A stretch of 64,000 nucleotides of DNA from Myxococcota bacterium (lineage in GTDB: Bacteria > Myxococcota > B64-G9), in the NCBI GenBank assembly GCA_022710975.1, contig JAKLGA010000019.1, forward strand, positions 1 through 64,000. The letters run 5' to 3'. Below, piece by piece: positions 1,705 through 16,500 of this stretch (positions are counted from its first letter, which is position 1; every line of letters begins with the position of its first letter). The position numbers were made by a program, and so were the translations under genes. The notes below the pieces were generated by a model. It was not told the DNA's origin, did no database searches, and saw nothing but the letters and a program-made list of their open reading frames with translations.

Positions 1705-2973
1705 TCACGGAAAACGCCGGTAGAGCGTCCAGCCCAGGGCCAGCTCGAGCAGCAGGGCCAGCAGCGCCGGCAACAACAGGAGCTGGAACACCTCGGTGTG
1801 CCGGGTGAACCGGCCCGGATCCATCAGCCGCGTCTTCTCCATCTGATCGAGGATGTCCTGGAAGTCCTCCTCCAGGGCCTTCTGGTCCACCGAGCGGTAG
1901 AACTTGCCCTTGGCGAGCCGGGCGATGTTCTGCAGCAGCTCCGGGTTGGTGCGGATCTCCACGTTGCGGTACTGCATGCGGCCGAACAGGTTCGGCCCCA
2001 CCGGGAAGGGCACCAGGCCGCCCTTGCCCACCAGGATGGGGAAGATGCGGATGTCCTGCTGGGCGGCGATCTCGGCGGCCTGCAGCGGCGCGATCTTGCT
2101 GGCGTTGTCGTCCCCGTCGGTCAACAGGATGACCACCTTGCTCTTGGCCTCGGACTCCCGCAGCCGGTTGACCGAGACCATGATCGCGTTGCCGATGGCG
2201 GTGCCGTCCTCGACCACGCCGGTCTTCACCGAGGAGAGCACCGACTGCAGGATCGAGTAGTCCAGGGTGAGCGGGGTCTGGGTGTAGGCCTCGGAGGCGA
2301 ACACCACCAGCCCCAGGCGGTCGTCCTGGCGCTGCTCGATGAAGCGGGCGATGACGCTCTTGGCCCCGTCGATGCGCGCCAGCTTCTTGTCCGGGCTGTC
2401 CGGAGGGGCGAAGTCCACCGCGTTCATGCTGGTGGACACGTCCAGGGTGATGACGATGTCCATGCCCTCGGCGAACACGTCCGCCTCGGTGGTGGCCACC
2501 TGGGGGCGGGCCACCGCCACGATCAGCGCGGCCAGGGCCAGGAAGCGGAGCAGCGGCACGAGGTAGCGCAGCACGCCCGGCCGCCCCCAGGCGACCTGCC
2601 TGAGCGGCGCCACGCTGGACAGCAGCATGACCGGCTGCACGCGCCGCTGCAGCCACACCCCCAGCAGCGCCAGCACCGGCACGGCGCCCAGCAGGACCAG
2701 CCCGCCCAGGAAGAGCGGGTGCTCGAGGGGCGGGGTGTCGCTGCCGAGCAGGGCGAAGCCGCAGGCCCCGGCGCCGGCCAGGACCGCGGGCGCGCAGAGC
2801 ACCAGCAGCCCGGCCTGGACGCGGCGCACGAACTCGGGCGCGTGCCAGCCGCCCGCCGAGGGCAGGCTGCGCCGGCGCTCGGCCAGCACCAGCACCAGCA
2901 GGGCCAGCGGCAGGGCCACCAGCAGCGCCAGGCCCGCCTGGGCGGCGAAGGCGAACTCCAGCGAGGTGTTCAC
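1705..2973 (-). CDS. batA: BatA-type von Willebrand factor A membrane protein
   Basis: A 422-residue VWA membrane protein, longer than most BatA proteins because of about 90 extra N-terminal residues with additional hydrophobic segments. The typical core follows: LLRFLALAALIVAVARPQ membrane segment, then IVITLDVSTSM with an intact DxSxS MIDAS site, GLVVFASEAYTQTPLTLD, and the VVILLTDGDDN motif. A C-terminal hydrophobic helix (FQLLLLPALLALLLELAL) closes the protein. The start is GTG at 2973, overlapping the upstream stop as GTGA; translational coupling is therefore likely. The pairing of two VWA proteins after MoxR and DUF58 is the classic Bat layout. Confidence 0.86.
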   Translation of the reverse strand: MNTSLEFAFAAQAGLALLVALPLALLVLVLAERRRSLPSAGGWHAPEFVRRVQAGLLVLCAPAVLAGAGACGFALLGSDTPPLEHPLFLGGLVLLGAVPVLALLGVWLQRRVQPVMLLSSVAPLRQVAWGRPGVLRYLVPLLRFLALAALIVAVARPQVATTEADVFAEGMDIVITLDVSTSMNAVDFAPPDSPDKKLARIDGAKSVIARFIEQRQDDRLGLVVFASEAYTQTPLTLDYSILQSVLSSVKTGVVEDGTAIGNAIMVSVNRLRESEAKSKVVILLTDGDDNASKIAPLQAAEIAAQQDIRIFPILVGKGGLVPFPVGPNLFGRMQYRNVEIRTNPELLQNIARLAKGKFYRSVDQKALEEDFQDILDQMEKTRLMDPGRFTRHTEVFQLLLLPALLALLLELALGWTLYRRFP

Positions 2974-3971
2974 GCGGGCGCCCCCTCCGCGGCCGGCTCC
3001 GGGCGCACGCGGGTGGCCTCGATGAGCTGGAAGGCGGTGTTGATGGCGCTCGAGCACTCCGCGTCCCCGGGCTGCAGCCGGGCGAACTTGACCAGGTCCG
3101 CCTCCTCGAGCAGCCTGGACAGGCTGGCCAGATCGAGCCCCGGCGCGATCCGGTCGCGCAGCTCCTCGCTGAGCTCGCGCGTGGTCAGATCGAGGGCGAA
3201 GAAGCCGTAGCGGTTGCCGAGGTACTCGCGCACCGCCTCCGACACCCGCACGAAGAACTCGTGCTGCTTGCCCTGGCGCAGCAGATCGTCCGCCACCACG
3301 GCCTGCAGCTTCTGCAGCGCGATCTCGTGGGCCAGGCGCGGGGGCGGCAGCTCCTCCAGCAGCTCCTCGGCGCGCCCGTGAGGCCGGAGGCGCCACACCG
3401 CCAGGGCCAGGCCCGCGAACAGCAGCAGCAGGCCGGCCCAGACCAGCAGGCGGAAGTCCGGCACCCGGACCGGCACCGGGCCGGCGATGTCACGGGGGGT
3501 GGGCTGGTCGACGCCCTCCAGCACGCTCACCACCTTGATCGGCAGGGGCGGCAGCTCCAGGGGCTCGCCCGCGCCGCCGTCGGCGTCGCGCGGCACGAGC
3601 CGGAGCGCCGGCACCTGGAGCTGGCCGAGCTGCTCGAAGGCCGCCAGCTTGAGCTCGATCCACTGGACGGTGTGGCCGCCCACCCGCTCGCTGCGCTCCT
3701 CGCGGCCGAGCTCGACGAAGGCGCCGAGCTCCGGGTCGGGCTCGAGGTGGAGCGACTGGCCCTCGGCCCCGCGCACCTGGATGCGCACGGTGAAGGGCTC
3801 TCCCAGGCGCACCTCCTGGCGATCGGCCTGGACGGTGGCGCCCGCGGCGGGCGCCTCGGCGGCCGGCACGCCCGCGTCGGGCGGGGCCGGGGCGGCGGGC
3901 TGGCCGGAGGCGGCCCCCGCCGAGAGCACCGCGATCGCGGCCAGGGCCGCGCTGAGGGAGCGCCGGGTCAT
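2970..3971 (-). CDS. BatD-like secreted, membrane-anchored protein
   Basis: A 333-residue protein with a signal peptide (MTRRSLSAALAAIAVLSAG, cleavage near ASG-QP), a Pro/Ala-rich linker, and a beta-rich domain (about 45-150) that starts VQADRQEVRLGEPFTVRIQV, typical of BatD-type oxygen-tolerance proteins. One membrane helix lies at about 175-195 (LLVWAGLLLLFAGLALAVW). A cytoplasmic helical domain follows with a YLGNRYGFFALDLTTREL segment that resembles the C-terminal part of DUF4381/BatD relatives. Start and stop overlap both neighbours by 4 bp (ATGA upstream, GTGA downstream), so it is one operon with the DUF58 and VWA genes. The family assignment rests on fold pattern and context. Confidence 0.72.
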   Translation of the reverse strand: MTRRSLSAALAAIAVLSAGAASGQPAAPAPPDAGVPAAEAPAAGATVQADRQEVRLGEPFTVRIQVRGAEGQSLHLEPDPELGAFVELGREERSERVGGHTVQWIELKLAAFEQLGQLQVPALRLVPRDADGGAGEPLELPPLPIKVVSVLEGVDQPTPRDIAGPVPVRVPDFRLLVWAGLLLLFAGLALAVWRLRPHGRAEELLEELPPPRLAHEIALQKLQAVVADDLLRQGKQHEFFVRVSEAVREYLGNRYGFFALDLTTRELSEELRDRIAPGLDLASLSRLLEEADLVKFARLQPGDAECSSAINTAFQLIEATRVRPEPAAEGAPA

Positions 3972-4849
3972 CGCGCCATCCGGGCCGCCCGCCGCTTGAA
4001 GAACAGCAGCAGCGGGCGGACGTAGTCGCCCTGGGTGGACAGCTCCACCGCGTCGATCTTCAGACGTTTGAACTGCCTGCGCTGCTCTTGCCAGGTCCGC
4101 TCCACCTGCTCGGCGTACTCCCGGCGGGCGTGGGCGGAGCCGGTGTCGAACAGCATCAACTCGCCCGTCTCGGCGTCCTGGAAGGCCGCCAGGCCGAGGT
4201 CGGGCAGCGCGGCCTCCAGCGGATCGCGCAGCACCACTGGCACCAGATCGTGCCGCCGGTTGGCCACCTTGAGGGCCGCCTCGTAGCCCTCGGCCATGAA
4301 GTCGGACACCAGGAAGGCGACCGTCTTGCGCTTGGTCACCCGGGCCAGGAACTCGAGCACGCCCTGGATGTTCGTGCCGCGGTGCTCCGGCCGGAAGGCC
4401 AGCACCTCGCTGATCACCCGCAGCACGTGCTTGGCGCCCTTCTTGGGCGGCACGAACTTCTCCACGCGATCGGTGAACATGATCAGCCCGACGCGGTCGT
4501 TGTTCTTGATGGCGGAGAAGGCCAGCAGCGCGCTCAGCTCGGCCGCCAGCTCCGACTTGAGCCGCTCGCGGGTGCCGAAGGCCTGCGAGCCCGAGGCGTC
4601 CACCAGCAGCATCACGGTCAGCTCGCGCTCCTCGATGAACTGCTTGACGTACAGGTCGTTCATGCGCGCGGTCACGTTCCAGTCGACCACGCGGATGTCG
4701 TCGCCGGGCTGGTAGGGCCGCACCTCGTCGAACACCATGCCGCGGCCCTTGAACACGGAGTGGTACTGGCCGGCCAGGACGTCGTTGACCGTCCGGTTCG
4801 TGGTGATCTCGATCTTGCGGATCTTCTTGATCAGCTCACGGGTGAGCAT
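3968..4849 (-). CDS. DUF58 domain protein of the MoxR operon
   Basis: A 293-residue cytoplasmic protein. The DUF58 signature is clear: an N-terminal helix (LIKKIRKIEITTNR), GQYHSVFKGRGMVFDEVRPY, then YQPGDDIRVVDWNVTAR. A VWA-like fold follows with MLLVDASGSQAFG, which retains a DxSxS site, and DRVGLIMFTD. No membrane helix is visible. ATG at 4849 begins MLTRELIKK. The stop overlaps the BatD-like gene by 4 bp. DUF58 proteins are almost always encoded next to MoxR ATPases, which are proposed to act as chaperones inserting metal or assembling complexes; that role is family knowledge, not visible here. Confidence 0.88.
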   Translation of the reverse strand: MLTRELIKKIRKIEITTNRTVNDVLAGQYHSVFKGRGMVFDEVRPYQPGDDIRVVDWNVTARMNDLYVKQFIEERELTVMLLVDASGSQAFGTRERLKSELAAELSALLAFSAIKNNDRVGLIMFTDRVEKFVPPKKGAKHVLRVISEVLAFRPEHRGTNIQGVLEFLARVTKRKTVAFLVSDFMAEGYEAALKVANRRHDLVPVVLRDPLEAALPDLGLAAFQDAETGELMLFDTGSAHARREYAEQVERTWQEQRRQFKRLKIDAVELSTQGDYVRPLLLFFKRRAARMAR

Positions 4850-4865
4850 GGGACCGCCCGATTCG

Positions 4866-4924
4866 AGTGCCTGGTGCCAGGTGCCTGGTGTCTGGTTCCT
4901 TGTTCCTGGTTCCTGGTTCCTGGA
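4866..4924. repeat. degenerate CCTGGT/TTCCTGG repeat in an operon gap
   Basis: The gap between the MoxR and DUF58 genes holds short imperfect repeats: cctggtgccaggtgcctgg, then tggttcct units repeated three times with small variation. It is the only spacer of appreciable length in an otherwise tightly overlapped operon. The plus strand could fold into small CCTGG/CCAGG hairpins. Confidence 0.7.
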
Positions 4925-4932
4925 CGCTGGCC

Positions 4933-5922
<990 letters not shown>

Positions 5923-6088: not shown

Positions 6089-6292
6089 ATGGCCAAGGAA
6101 GAACGGCTGTTCGACAAGCGGGTCGTGGAGCGCAACATCAAGGCCGGGGTCGTCACCCGCGAGGAGCACCAGAAGCACTTGAAGGCGCTGAAGGATCTGA
6201 CCGAGCAGTCGGCCAAGCTGGAGTCCGAGCTGAACGTGCTGGGCCGGGACCTGCCGACCCGCAACATCGGCAACGAGGAAGAGGAGCTTTGA
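6089..6292 (+). CDS. small conserved-looking charged protein
   Basis: A 67-residue, highly charged, largely helical protein (MAKEERLFDKRVVERNIKAG...). It has no signal peptide or Cys. A strong ribosome-binding site (aggagg, 6073-6078) precedes the ATG and a good promoter lies upstream, so it is a real gene. Its stop overlaps the TTG start of the DUF1844 gene (TTGA). The helical region VTREEHQKHLKALKDLTEQ and an acidic tail may mediate protein binding. Function unknown; coupling suggests it works with the DUF1844 protein. Confidence 0.75.
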   Translation: MAKEERLFDKRVVERNIKAGVVTREEHQKHLKALKDLTEQSAKLESELNVLGRDLPTRNIGNEEEEL

Positions 6293-6624
6293 GCCCGCCG
6301 GACGAGCAGGCCGGAGCGCCCCCTGCCGGGGCGCCTCCAGCCGGGACGCCCCCGCCGGCCGGGACGCCTCCCGAGGTGGACTTCACCGCCTTCCTGCTGT
6401 CGCTGTCCCAGACCGCGCTCCAGCAGCTCGGCTGCACGGGTGGCCCCGGCAAGGCCCTGGCGGAGCCCAACCTGGTGCTGGCCCAGCACACCATCGATCT
6501 GCTGGCCATGCTGCAGGTGAAGACCCAGGGCAACCTCACGACCATCGAAGAGAAGCTGCTCGCCAGCCTCCTGTACGACCTGCGCATGCGCTACGTCGAG
6601 TGCGCCCAGGCCTCGCACAAGTGA
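6289..6624 (+). CDS. DUF1844 domain protein
   Basis: A 111-residue protein with a short Pro/Ala/Gly-rich N-terminus and then the DUF1844 signature: FTAFLLSLSQTALQQLG, NLVLAQHTIDLLAMLQ, KTQGNLTTIEEKLL and LLYDLRMRYVE. TTG at 6289 is chosen because it overlaps the upstream TGA as TTGA, follows a GAAGAGGAG site, and removes a low-complexity extension in another gene. It overlaps the next gene by 4 bp (GTGA). DUF1844 is widespread in Myxococcota, Acidobacteria and Chlamydia-related groups; no biochemical function is established. Confidence 0.85.
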   Translation: MSPPDEQAGAPPAGAPPAGTPPPAGTPPEVDFTAFLLSLSQTALQQLGCTGGPGKALAEPNLVLAQHTIDLLAMLQVKTQGNLTTIEEKLLASLLYDLRMRYVECAQASHK

Positions 6625-7697
6625 ACCGCCCGCCCGCGGCGTCCGCGCTGGTTTGCATGGCGCTCGCGGCCCTGGCCCCGGCCGGATGCGAGCGGCCCGC
6701 CGTCGAGGCCTTCCCCGCGCCCGCCCCCGGCCCCGAGCCGGCGCCCAGGCCGGACGGGCTCCGGCTGCCGGCCTTCGAGGAGCTGTACCGCCAGACGAGC
6801 CCGGCCGTGGTCAACGTGCTGGCGCGGCAGGCCATGCCCTTCCTGGAGGCCGACCGGCCGGGCTACCCCGCGGTGCACGGCATGGGCTCCGGGTTCCTGC
6901 TCGACGGCCAGGGCCACCTGGTGACCAGCGCCAGCGTGGTCCAGGACGCCGAGGAGATCCTGGTGGTGCTGCCCACCGGCCGCGAGCTCCGGGCGCGGCT
7001 CGTCGCGCTGGACGCGGGCACCGACCTGGCCGTGCTGCGCGCCGACCTGCCGCCGGGCGCGCCGCCCTTGCCCGCGCCACCGCCGCTCGAGCGCGCCGGG
7101 AGCCCGCGCTCCGGGGACTGGGTGGTGGCCATCGGCTACCCCTACGGCCTGGGCCACACGCTCACCGCCGGGGTGGTCAGCGCCGTGCTGAGCCCGGCCG
7201 AGACCCAGGCCGGGCACGGGCTGGTGCTCACCGACGCCGCGGTGAACCCGGGCTGCAACGGCGGGCCGCTGATCGACGAGCGCGGGCGGGTGGTGGGGGT
7301 GCTGCACCTGCCCGGGCAGGAGGAGGACGGGCTGGGCCGGGCCATCCCGATGCGGGACGCCTGGCCCATCCTCGAGGAGCTGCGCGCGGGCCGCGTCCCC
7401 AGGCGCGCCTGGCTGGGCGTGCGCACGCAGTTCGTCAGCCACGAGCTGGCGCGCACCTTCGGCCTGCCCGCCGCCCAGGGCGCGCTGGTCAGCCAGGTGG
7501 AGCCCGGCTCACCCGCCGCGCGGGCAGGGCTGCGCAAGGGCGATGTGCTGGTGCGGCTCGGGCCCTGGCCGGTCGAGGACCCCGAGGCCCTGGTCGAGGC
7601 CCTGCGCCGCAGCCGGCCGGGGACGCCCGTGAAGGCCGAGCTCCTCCGGGAAGGCAAGCCGCTCTCGCTGACCGTCACCCCGCGGCCGGAGCCCTGA
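6621..7697 (+). CDS. HtrA/DegP-like lipoprotein lacking catalytic His and Ser
   Basis: A 358-residue trypsin-fold plus PDZ protein. The start is GTG at 6621 (GTGA overlap). The N-terminus has a lipoprotein-like signal ending LAPAGC (Cys23). The protease domain follows: GSGFLLDGQGHLVTSASVV, where HtrA proteins have VTNNHVV, so the catalytic His position is Ser105; Asp135 (TDLAVLR) is kept; NPGCNGGPLID replaces NPGNSGGPL, so the catalytic Ser position is Asn213. The PDZ domain (about 265-355) is intact, with RRAWLGVRTQ and GSPAARAGLRKGDVLVRL. It should bind peptides but not hydrolyse them, if the alignment is right. Third gene of an operon with the DUF1844 protein. It could be a chaperone or scaffold of periplasmic quality control. 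Confidence 0.88.
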   Translation: MNRPPAASALVCMALAALAPAGCERPAVEAFPAPAPGPEPAPRPDGLRLPAFEELYRQTSPAVVNVLARQAMPFLEADRPGYPAVHGMGSGFLLDGQGHLVTSASVVQDAEEILVVLPTGRELRARLVALDAGTDLAVLRADLPPGAPPLPAPPPLERAGSPRSGDWVVAIGYPYGLGHTLTAGVVSAVLSPAETQAGHGLVLTDAAVNPGCNGGPLIDERGRVVGVLHLPGQEEDGLGRAIPMRDAWPILEELRAGRVPRRAWLGVRTQFVSHELARTFGLPAAQGALVSQVEPGSPAARAGLRKGDVLVRLGPWPVEDPEALVEALRRSRPGTPVKAELLREGKPLSLTVTPRPEP

Positions 7698-8049: not shown

Positions 8050-13470
<5,421 letters not shown>

Positions 13471-13488
13471 GGCAGGACCTCCCATAGA

Positions 13489-13508
13489 GTGCAGCCAGAG
13501 GACTGCAC
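13489..13508. promoter_or_regulatory. hairpin between the two giant paralogs
   Basis: GTGCAG-CCAGAGGA-CTGCAC is a 6-bp perfect stem in the 92-bp gap upstream of paralog 1. On the minus strand a GAATATGGTA stretch lies about 20 bp upstream and may be a -10 element. It may be a 5' UTR hairpin of paralog 1 or the weak terminator of paralog 2. Confidence 0.3.
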
Positions 13509-13562
13509 CCCGGAGGCTACCATATTCGGGGCAGGAGGCGGAACCACAGGCAGGTCGAGGTT

Positions 13563-16500
13563 TCAGGCCGCGCGCTGGGTGCGCCGGCGAGACACGGCCA
13601 GCGCGACCAGGCCCGCGAGGCCGAGCAGGGCCGAGCCCGCGTCGGCGCCGCCCGCGCCGCACACGCACCCGCCGCCGGACACGTCCGCGCCGTCCCAGAT
13701 CGTGCAGCGGTCCTGGTAATCCTGGGGGCAGGGATCGACCCCGTCGCAGGCGCCGTCCCCGTCCCCGTCCGGGCAGCCGATGCACCCGTCGTCCGCGTCG
13801 TGGGGGCAGGGGTCCACGCAGGTGGGCGCGCCGTCCCCGTCGGGATCGCCGGGATCCGGGCAGGCCGCGCAGGTGTTGGCCGCGTCGCCCGGGCAGGGAT
13901 CCCGGTCGTCGCACACCCCGTCGCTGTCCGCGTCCAGGCAGCCGCAGGCCGGGTCTGGATCGGTCGGGCACGGGTCCGCCACGTCGCACAGCCCGTCCTG
14001 GTCGCTGTCCACGCAGGTGCAGGTGTTGGCCGCGTCCTGGGCGCAGGGGTCGAGGGCGTCGCAGATGCCGTCGTCGTCCTGGTCCGGGCAGGCCTGGCAG
14101 CGATCCTCGGGATCCTGCGGGCACGCGTCCTGGGCGTCGCAGACGCCGTCCTGGTCCGCGTCCAGGAAGGTGTGGGTGCAGCCTAGCAGCGCGTCGCAGG
14201 CGTCCGCGGTGCAAGCGTCCCCGTCGTCGCAGGCGCCGGGGTCCGGGCTGAACACGCAGGCGTCCGCGGCCTCGTCGCACGAGTCCGCGGTGCAGGCCAG
14301 CCCGTCGTCGCACGAGAAGTCGGCCTGGGGCACGCAGCTCCCCTCCAGGCAGCGCTCCGCGCCGTTGCAGAACAGGCCGTCGTCGCAGGAGGCATCGTCC
14401 GTGCAGGCGACGCAGCCGTCGCCCGCCTCGTCGCACACCAGGCCGGCCGCCGCGCAGGGATCGCCGGCGGACACGCAGCCGCTCAGCGCGTCGCATCCCT
14501 CCGCGCCGGTGCAGAAGAGCCCGTCGTCGCACAATGCGTCGTCCGGGCTGAAGACGCAGCCGCCCGCCCCCTCGTCGCACGAGTCCGCGGTGCAGCCCAC
14601 CCCGTCATCGCACGCGACCGGCGTGCCCGGCTGGCAGCCCAGCACCGGGTCGCAGCTCTCCGCGCCAGTGCAGTGGAGCCCGTCGTCGCAGGCCGCGTCG
14701 CCCGGCAGGAAGGCGCAGCCGCCCGCGCCCTCGTCGCACTCGTCCACGGTGCAGGCCAGCCCGTCGTCGCAGGTGACCGGCGCCCCGGCCTGGCAGCCCA
14801 GCAGCGCGTCGCAGCTCTCCAGGCCGGTGCAGAAGAGCCCGTCGTCGCAGGCCGCGTCGTCCGGCAGGAAGGCGCAGCCGCCCGCGCCCTCGTCGCACGA
14901 GTCCGCCGTGCAGCTGAGCCCGTCCTCGCAGACCAGCGGCGCGCCCGGCTGGCAACCGTTCACCGGGTCGCAGCTCTCGGCCCCGTCGCACACCAGGCCG
15001 TCGTCGCAGGCCGCGTCGTCCGGGCAGGCCACGCAGGCGTCGCCCAGGCCGTCGCCGTCGCTGTCCTCCTGCCCGGGGTTTGCGACCAGCGGACAGTTGT
15101 CGTCCCCATCCAGCACGCCGTCGGCATCATCGTCGGAATCGCAGGCATCGCCCACCCCGTCCAGATCGGTGTCGAGTTGATTGGCGTTCGGCGTGAGCGG
15201 GCAGTTGTCTTCCGTGTCCTCGAGCCCGTCCTCGTCGTCGTCCGGGTCGCAGGCGTCGCCTTGCCCGTCCAGGTCCGTATCGAGCTGATCGGCGTTCGGG
15301 GTGAGCGGGCAGTTGTCGTCCACGTCCCCGATCCCGTCCCCGTCGTCGTCCTCGTCGCAGGCATCGCCCGCTCCGTCCAGATCCATGTCTAGCTGATCTG
15401 GATTCTCGACTAGCGTGCAGTTGTCGCAAGCGTCGCCCTTGCCATCCCAGTCCGAGTCCAGCTGATCAGGGTTCGCGTCGAGCGGGCAAATATCCGTGCT
15501 GTCCGGCCGTCCGTCCCCGTCCGAATCGGTGTCCACCAGAAAGCTCGTTTCCTCCTCCGCGATGCGCGCGACGCAAGCTGCGTCCCATTGCAGCAGGACC
15601 TGGTAGTCACCGACCTGCGGGTAGGCCACCGCGCCGAGTAGAAGGCTGAACGCGAAGCTCCCTCCCGCGGCTAGCGATTCCACCGGCAACGCGCGGGTGT
15701 ACTCGACGCCGGTGAAGGGCACGAAGCTGCCGTTCGCCAGCAGGATCTGGAGCCCGTCAGGGGTCAACACTTGAACTTGGGCCTGGCTGGCGCCGAAGCC
15801 CGCGATGAGGTTCTGGTTGAAGAGCTCAACCTCGATCACCAGGTCGTCCCCCGGAAGAATCGCGACCGGTTTAGCCTCAAACTCGTCCACGATCCCAGCC
15901 CGTACATGAGAGATCGAGATCTGCCCAAAACGGATACTGTCGAAACGATCCCAGGCCTCTATCGTCCAGACGCCAAGAGGATCGGAGGCGGCGAAGGTGT
16001 GCTCAGCGACGGCCTCCCCGATGGCTGTTGCCGGCACGGGGTAAGCCGCTGCGGTCGAGCCGTCCGGTCGCAGCACCACGATTTCATAGCGCCCGACCGC
16101 TCCGCCGACCAGACCACTGGCCATGAAGTAGGCCGTGGCGCAGGTGGCGAACTCGGACGCCTGGAGCTGGAAGAGCTCGTCGCGGAAGGACTGGAGGTTC
16201 TGCACGATCACCCCGGCCACGGCCGTGTCGAAGGCCGAGGGCGCGGTCTGGGAGGTGGCCGTCACGGTGAGCGTGTCGATGGTGTCGGGCGAGGCGTCGT
16301 CAGGCGTGAGCACCTCGAGTACGAAGGTGTACCCTCCCCCGAAAGCTGCTACCCCGGTGGTCTCGCCGATCAGCGCGCCGTCATCGATGCTGCCGTCGCC
16401 GTCGGGATCGGACCAGAAGCGCGCCGTCCAGCCCTGGGCCGAGACCGCCGAGAGCTGGAACGCGTCGACCGCCGTCCAGGCGTTCATCACCTGGAAGGGG

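Follow-up and report, generated by a model that had tools for sequence, protein, structure and literature searches.

The present study reveals that an HtrA-type gene of a Myxococcota bacterium encodes Ser and Asn in place of the catalytic His and Ser, and that both positions are replaced in every ortholog found in its family. The gene lies in a stretch of 64,000 nucleotides (the window), whose genome belongs to an uncultured family of Myxococcota, labeled f1 here. Because the cutting residues are replaced in all eight genomes in which the protein was found, its role is, judging from sequence, almost certainly a non-cutting one. We give about an even chance to the reading that the f1 protein is a fixed, family-wide pseudoprotease serving as a membrane-tethered, DegS-like adaptor or regulator of an active HtrA or, as the nearest variant, as a holdase. 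The relevant features of the window are as follows.

Positions 4933-5922, minus strand: MoxR AAA+ ATPase gene, divergent, with DUF58 behind it; a conserved neighbor in families f1 and f3.
Positions 6089-6292, plus strand: small charged protein of 67 amino acids, first gene of the operon, read from the sequence.
Positions 6289-6624, plus strand: DUF1844 protein of 111 amino acids (PF08899, 1.6e-23).
Positions 6621-7697, plus strand: HtrA pseudoprotease gene, 358 amino acids, assigned by Pfam, alignment, and structure model.
Positions 6933-6935, plus strand: Ser105 codon, where the catalytic His would stand; from alignment A1 and from comparing intact HtrAs.
Positions 7257-7259, plus strand: Asn213 codon, where the catalytic Ser would stand; all eight f1 members have Asn here.
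Residues of the HtrA protein: signal peptide with Cys23; trypsin-like domain, about 86-255; one PDZ domain, about 262-355.

The HtrA gene starts with GTG, overlapping the TGA stop of the DUF1844 gene (6622-6624). Its product shows the HtrA/Do fold, that is, a trypsin-like domain, at least one PDZ domain, and export, with Trypsin_2 (6e-30) and a single PDZ_2 domain (2e-12) over the Pfam cut-offs; the PDZ domain noted in the preliminary description is thus retained. The lipobox reads L-A-P-A-G-C, with a non-canonical Pro at -3. Its Cys is aligned in all eight f1 members, most of which have a better lipobox than the window protein. The signal peptide and this conserved Cys were the only signs of a membrane anchor seen, and the protein is exported and probably membrane- or lipid-anchored. 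A structure model of the mature protein (pLDDT 89.4) matched DegQ and DegS best among PDB entries, and also MucD and AlgW; the fold is predicted to be intact.

The triad positions were read by alignment with canonical HtrAs. Ser105 (VTSASVV) aligns to the His of LTNxHVV and Asn213 (NPGCNGGPL) to the Ser of NPGNSGGPL, while residue 135 is the retained catalytic Asp, confirming the earlier reading of this active site. Across the eight f1 members the His column holds Ser in seven and Thr in one, the Asp column is always Asp, and the Ser column is always Asn. In place of the His-Asp-Ser triad of an HtrA/Do serine endopeptidase, all eight proteins therefore carry Ser (or Thr)/Asp/Asn, from which we infer that proteolysis is absent in f1 HtrAs. 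Asn213, Gly211, and Asp135 are invariant, and the L1 loop (residues 204-217) is the best conserved of the regions measured, its top-residue frequency averaging 0.89, compared with 0.68 across the protease domain as a whole. The preliminary description had allowed for another Ser/His pair lying in place. As no His is invariant anywhere in the alignment of the eight f1 HtrAs, they have no shared substitute base, and an alternative His was rejected in this role. Cys212 was likewise rejected as a shared alternative nucleophile, since it is replaced by Tyr or Ser in two f1 members. A search for the motif NPGxNGGP over 195 genomes of the phylum returned HtrA matches in f1 only; six further matches failed the HtrA profile.

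The comparison set consisted of eight other f1 genomes, one per genus, one of which is 70% complete. Seven orthologs, one per genus, were found at 40-51% identity to the window protein; the 70% complete genome has neither DUF1844 nor the pseudo-HtrA. Pairwise identity among the eight f1 HtrAs ranges from 39 to 62% (mean 46%), and the open frame, signal peptide, PDZ domain, and active-site loops are conserved across eight genera. The substitutions were expected to recur beside DUF1844 if they were selected, and relatives with an intact triad were to signal an assembly error or decay. All orthologs, the seven and the window protein alike, combine Ser or Thr with Asn beside DUF1844, and none of them keeps the triad. 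Since eight separate genomes agree on the same substitutions, sequencing or assembly error and recent decay are excluded. This agreement, together with the conservation of the L1 loop at a mean identity of 46%, indicates that the triad change is ancestral to f1 and that the site is still constrained. The claim that catalysis was lost twice independently in this one protein was not supported as worded: both changes were fixed in the family ancestor, and therefore their independence cannot be shown.

All eight f1 genomes also encode a canonical two-PDZ DegP whose triad is intact; these genes sit elsewhere and are linked to the pseudo-HtrA by co-occurrence only. The pseudoproteases evolve faster than these paralogs (mean identity 46% versus 57%), which suits a new function and also relaxed constraint. 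In the window genome eight other HtrA-related matches occur, and the triad is intact in all seven for which the match covers the active site. A scan of genome contigs gave mostly unrelated HtrAs, including 82 intact triads and none lost outside f1.

DegS is an outer-membrane stress sensor protease that is anchored in the inner membrane and cleaves RseA upon peptide binding. The window protein resembles it in having a trypsin-like domain, probably membrane-anchored, with a single PDZ domain, and it is 30-33% identical to solved DegS structures. However, its catalytic His and Ser are replaced, it has a probable lipid anchor where DegS has a transmembrane helix, no RseA/RseB context was seen at the f1 loci, and the window protein scores 183 bits with the DegS model (TIGR02038), below the equivalog cut-off of 423. 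With DegP, DegQ, and MucD it shares the protease fold and PDZ1, and DegP-like structures are nearest by sequence. In contrast to these proteins, it lacks PDZ2 and the catalytic residues, and its score with the Do model (TIGR02037) is 219 bits against a family cut-off of 416.

In magnetotactic bacteria the dead HtrA MamO promotes proteolysis by the active MamE, and pairs of dead and active HtrAs have three origins there (PMC4794232). Like MamO and the inactive MamE copies (PMC4794232), the f1 proteins are degenerate-triad HtrAs kept beside active ones, and repeated independent origin is a further, likely, common point; they share with MamO the loss of catalytic residues, a retained fold, and the presence of an active HtrA in their genomes. 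MamO differs, however, in that His and Asp remain and Thr serves as nucleophile, and in its TauE domain and di-histidine metal site. The MamO model gives the window protein only a weak 34 bits against 800, and f1 HtrAs, having no invariant His, lack the di-histidine motif.

The preliminary description placed the gene in an operon, and in a possible functional unit, with DUF1844 and a small charged protein. Gene order (small protein, DUF1844, HtrA) is kept in all eight f1 loci. The short overlap between genes is not universal among relatives, since in one genome (G008) a few hundred bases separate DUF1844 from the HtrA start. The 67-amino-acid protein carries the motif [FL]DKRxxxRxxxxGxVxxxExxxxLxxLxD, matches no Pfam or NCBIfam model above its cut-off, and lies upstream of DUF1844 in all eight f1 members and in most Myxococcota families. 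The DUF1844 gene starts with TTG, overlapping the stop of the small gene, and its product scores 83 bits with PF08899 (gathering threshold 27). It is modeled as a three-helix bundle (pLDDT 85) with no significant match to PDB folds. No signal peptide is visible in it by inspection; it is probably cytosolic, and the small protein apparently so. The operon with DUF1844 is conserved, but a direct DUF1844-HtrA complex is doubtful because the HtrA is exported. As the operon joins cytosolic and exported proteins, a regulatory link or a common response to stress is more probable than direct complex formation.

In this phylum, 178 of 195 genomes carry DUF1844, and the surroundings of the gene were sampled at about one genome per genus with profiles of HtrA, the small protein, and DUF1844. 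An HtrA lies beside DUF1844 in 13 Myxococcota families: between the small protein and DUF1844 in f10, f13, f14, f15, f23, f27, f30, and f31; immediately before DUF1844 in f16 and f20; and after it in f1, f4, and f12. Ten of these families keep the triad and three have lost it, namely f1 in all eight genomes and f27 and f12 in one genome each:

L094, positions 4374-5789, minus strand: dead HtrA of f27 (G079), Arg for His and Ala for Ser, with two PDZ domains and a signal peptide that lacks a lipobox.
L126, positions 4276-5256, plus strand: dead HtrA of f12 (G020), Arg for His and Cys for Ser; lipoprotein-like N terminus, PDZ missing and none seen in other frames.

The f1 HtrAs form one clade in the trees (100/100), outside the type in which HtrA lies between the small protein and DUF1844. 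Neither descent from that type (AU p 0.20) nor joining the f4 protein, of the DUF1844-HtrA type (AU p 0.27), was rejected as their origin. A single clade of the f1 and f27 HtrAs, implying a common loss, was disfavored (AU p 0.026), a value to be read modestly given the long branches. Because of this value and the differing replacing residues, and tempered by those branches, two independent catalytic losses in Myxococcota families are likely and three are possible.

Elsewhere, 81 further DUF1844 loci were sampled, the majority from a second phylum, which is probably desulfobacterial. HtrA adjoins DUF1844 in 38 of the 81, nearly always directly downstream, and all 37 readable triads are intact. 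These DUF1844-linked active HtrAs resemble the f1 proteins in adjoining DUF1844 on the same strand, the DUF1844-then-HtrA order being usual in the second phylum, but differ in their intact triad and usually two PDZ domains. Since the pair is widespread and its HtrA usually active, it is normally proteolytic and its usual function includes proteolysis; that function thus needs no loss of catalysis. Side by side with an intact DegP-like HtrA, DUF1844 stands directly upstream in many second-phylum genomes (L270-L339), a link for which no report was found in the literature searched.

We infer the adaptor or holdase role and its regulation from conservation, layout, co-occurrence, and the MamO/MamE precedent. 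The f1 pseudo-HtrA would be the HtrA partner of the widespread DUF1844-HtrA gene pair. Its PDZ domain and dead groove might capture envelope proteins at the membrane by their exposed C termini or unfolded segments; the pseudo-HtrA could then present them to an active DegP-type HtrA or tune that protease allosterically; simply holding them would be the closest alternative mechanism. DUF1844 and the small protein may contribute stress-linked regulation without directly contacting the pseudo-HtrA. Alternatively, the protein could be a dead DegS-like receptor whose PDZ domain detects misfolded outer-membrane protein C termini and which signals by contacts rather than by cutting an anti-sigma factor. 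Its membrane anchor, single intact PDZ domain, and DegS-type proteins among the top structural matches are consistent with such a sensor, but the operon contains no sigma or anti-sigma gene, and an exported single-PDZ protein without a transmembrane signaling domain has no obvious signal route. We consider this unlikely.

Rather unlikely, too, is that the dead domain binds a new ligand, such as a metal or a cell-wall or surface component, unrelated to HtrA substrates. MamO binds a transition metal at a direct metal site (PMC4794232), the invariant Asn with Ser/Thr could shape a new site, and a gene for a surface repeat protein adjoins the pseudo-HtrA in three of the eight f1 loci; nevertheless, the substrate-binding loops are retained, and the absence of a conserved His pair or Cys cluster from the eight f1 HtrAs means that the MamO metal motif is missing. 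Residual or altered catalysis through Ser105, Asn213, or another residue is very improbable: the catalytic Asp, the oxyanion Gly, and the L1 loop are kept, but no conserved His could act as base, the nucleophile is Asn throughout, and Cys212 varies. Equally improbable is a gene on its way out after losing catalysis by drift. Such decay would fit the faster evolution relative to the DegP paralogs, and the shortened HtrA without PDZ in L126 shows that such a form exists in another family; yet the open frame and the same two changes persist in eight genera at 39-62% pairwise identity, with signal peptide, PDZ domain, and active-site loops conserved. The adaptor reading is the one we prefer.

HtrA pseudoproteases are already known, whereas a family-wide Ser/Asn form tied to DUF1844, as in f1, was not found in the literature searched, where DUF1844 itself received one passing mention. 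Dead HtrAs are little studied in bacteria, MamO being the only well-studied bacterial one in that literature. The f1 case is a natural separation, at the sequence level, of HtrA binding from HtrA cutting and gives DUF1844 a functional lead, envelope proteostasis. The set includes a probable Anaeromyxobacter genome with an active version of the operon, making the operon testable in culture. A broader statement, which we hold tentatively and regard as doubtful, is that DUF1844 and HtrA form a widespread, unstudied proteostasis module, that a non-proteolytic function of HtrA is important enough by itself to have been retained after loss of catalysis, independently, in at least two, perhaps three, Myxococcota families, and that f1 represents a new class of DUF1844-coupled pseudo-HtrA adaptor.

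The neighbors of the module include ClpB after it in f8, f17, f23, f25, f29, and one f1 genome, Hsp20 before it in f4, and divergent MoxR/DUF58 in f1 and f3; these frequent ClpB, Hsp20, or MoxR neighbors provide a proteostasis context. MoxR is divergent in the window, in G002, G005, G006, and G007, and in four f3 loci, where the small protein and DUF1844 occur without HtrA, and it is possibly related in function to the module. In f8 (probably Myxococcaceae; L097-L117, L134) the operon lacks HtrA, and a conserved membrane protein lies between DUF1844 and ClpB. In f4 (L144, positions 1893-3206, minus strand) DUF1844 and a lipoprotein-like HtrA with intact triad follow a sigma-54-type AAA regulator and Hsp20. 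Downstream of the pseudo-HtrA in the window, positions 8050-14580 (minus strand) encode a very large protein. It carries many Ca-binding DxDGD (thrombospondin type 3-like) repeats together with Cys-rich stretches, and its C-terminal tail, hydrophobic plus Arg, is reminiscent of a MYXO-CTERM signal; in G004 (L137) and G008 (L138) a similar protein is convergent to the pseudo-HtrA.
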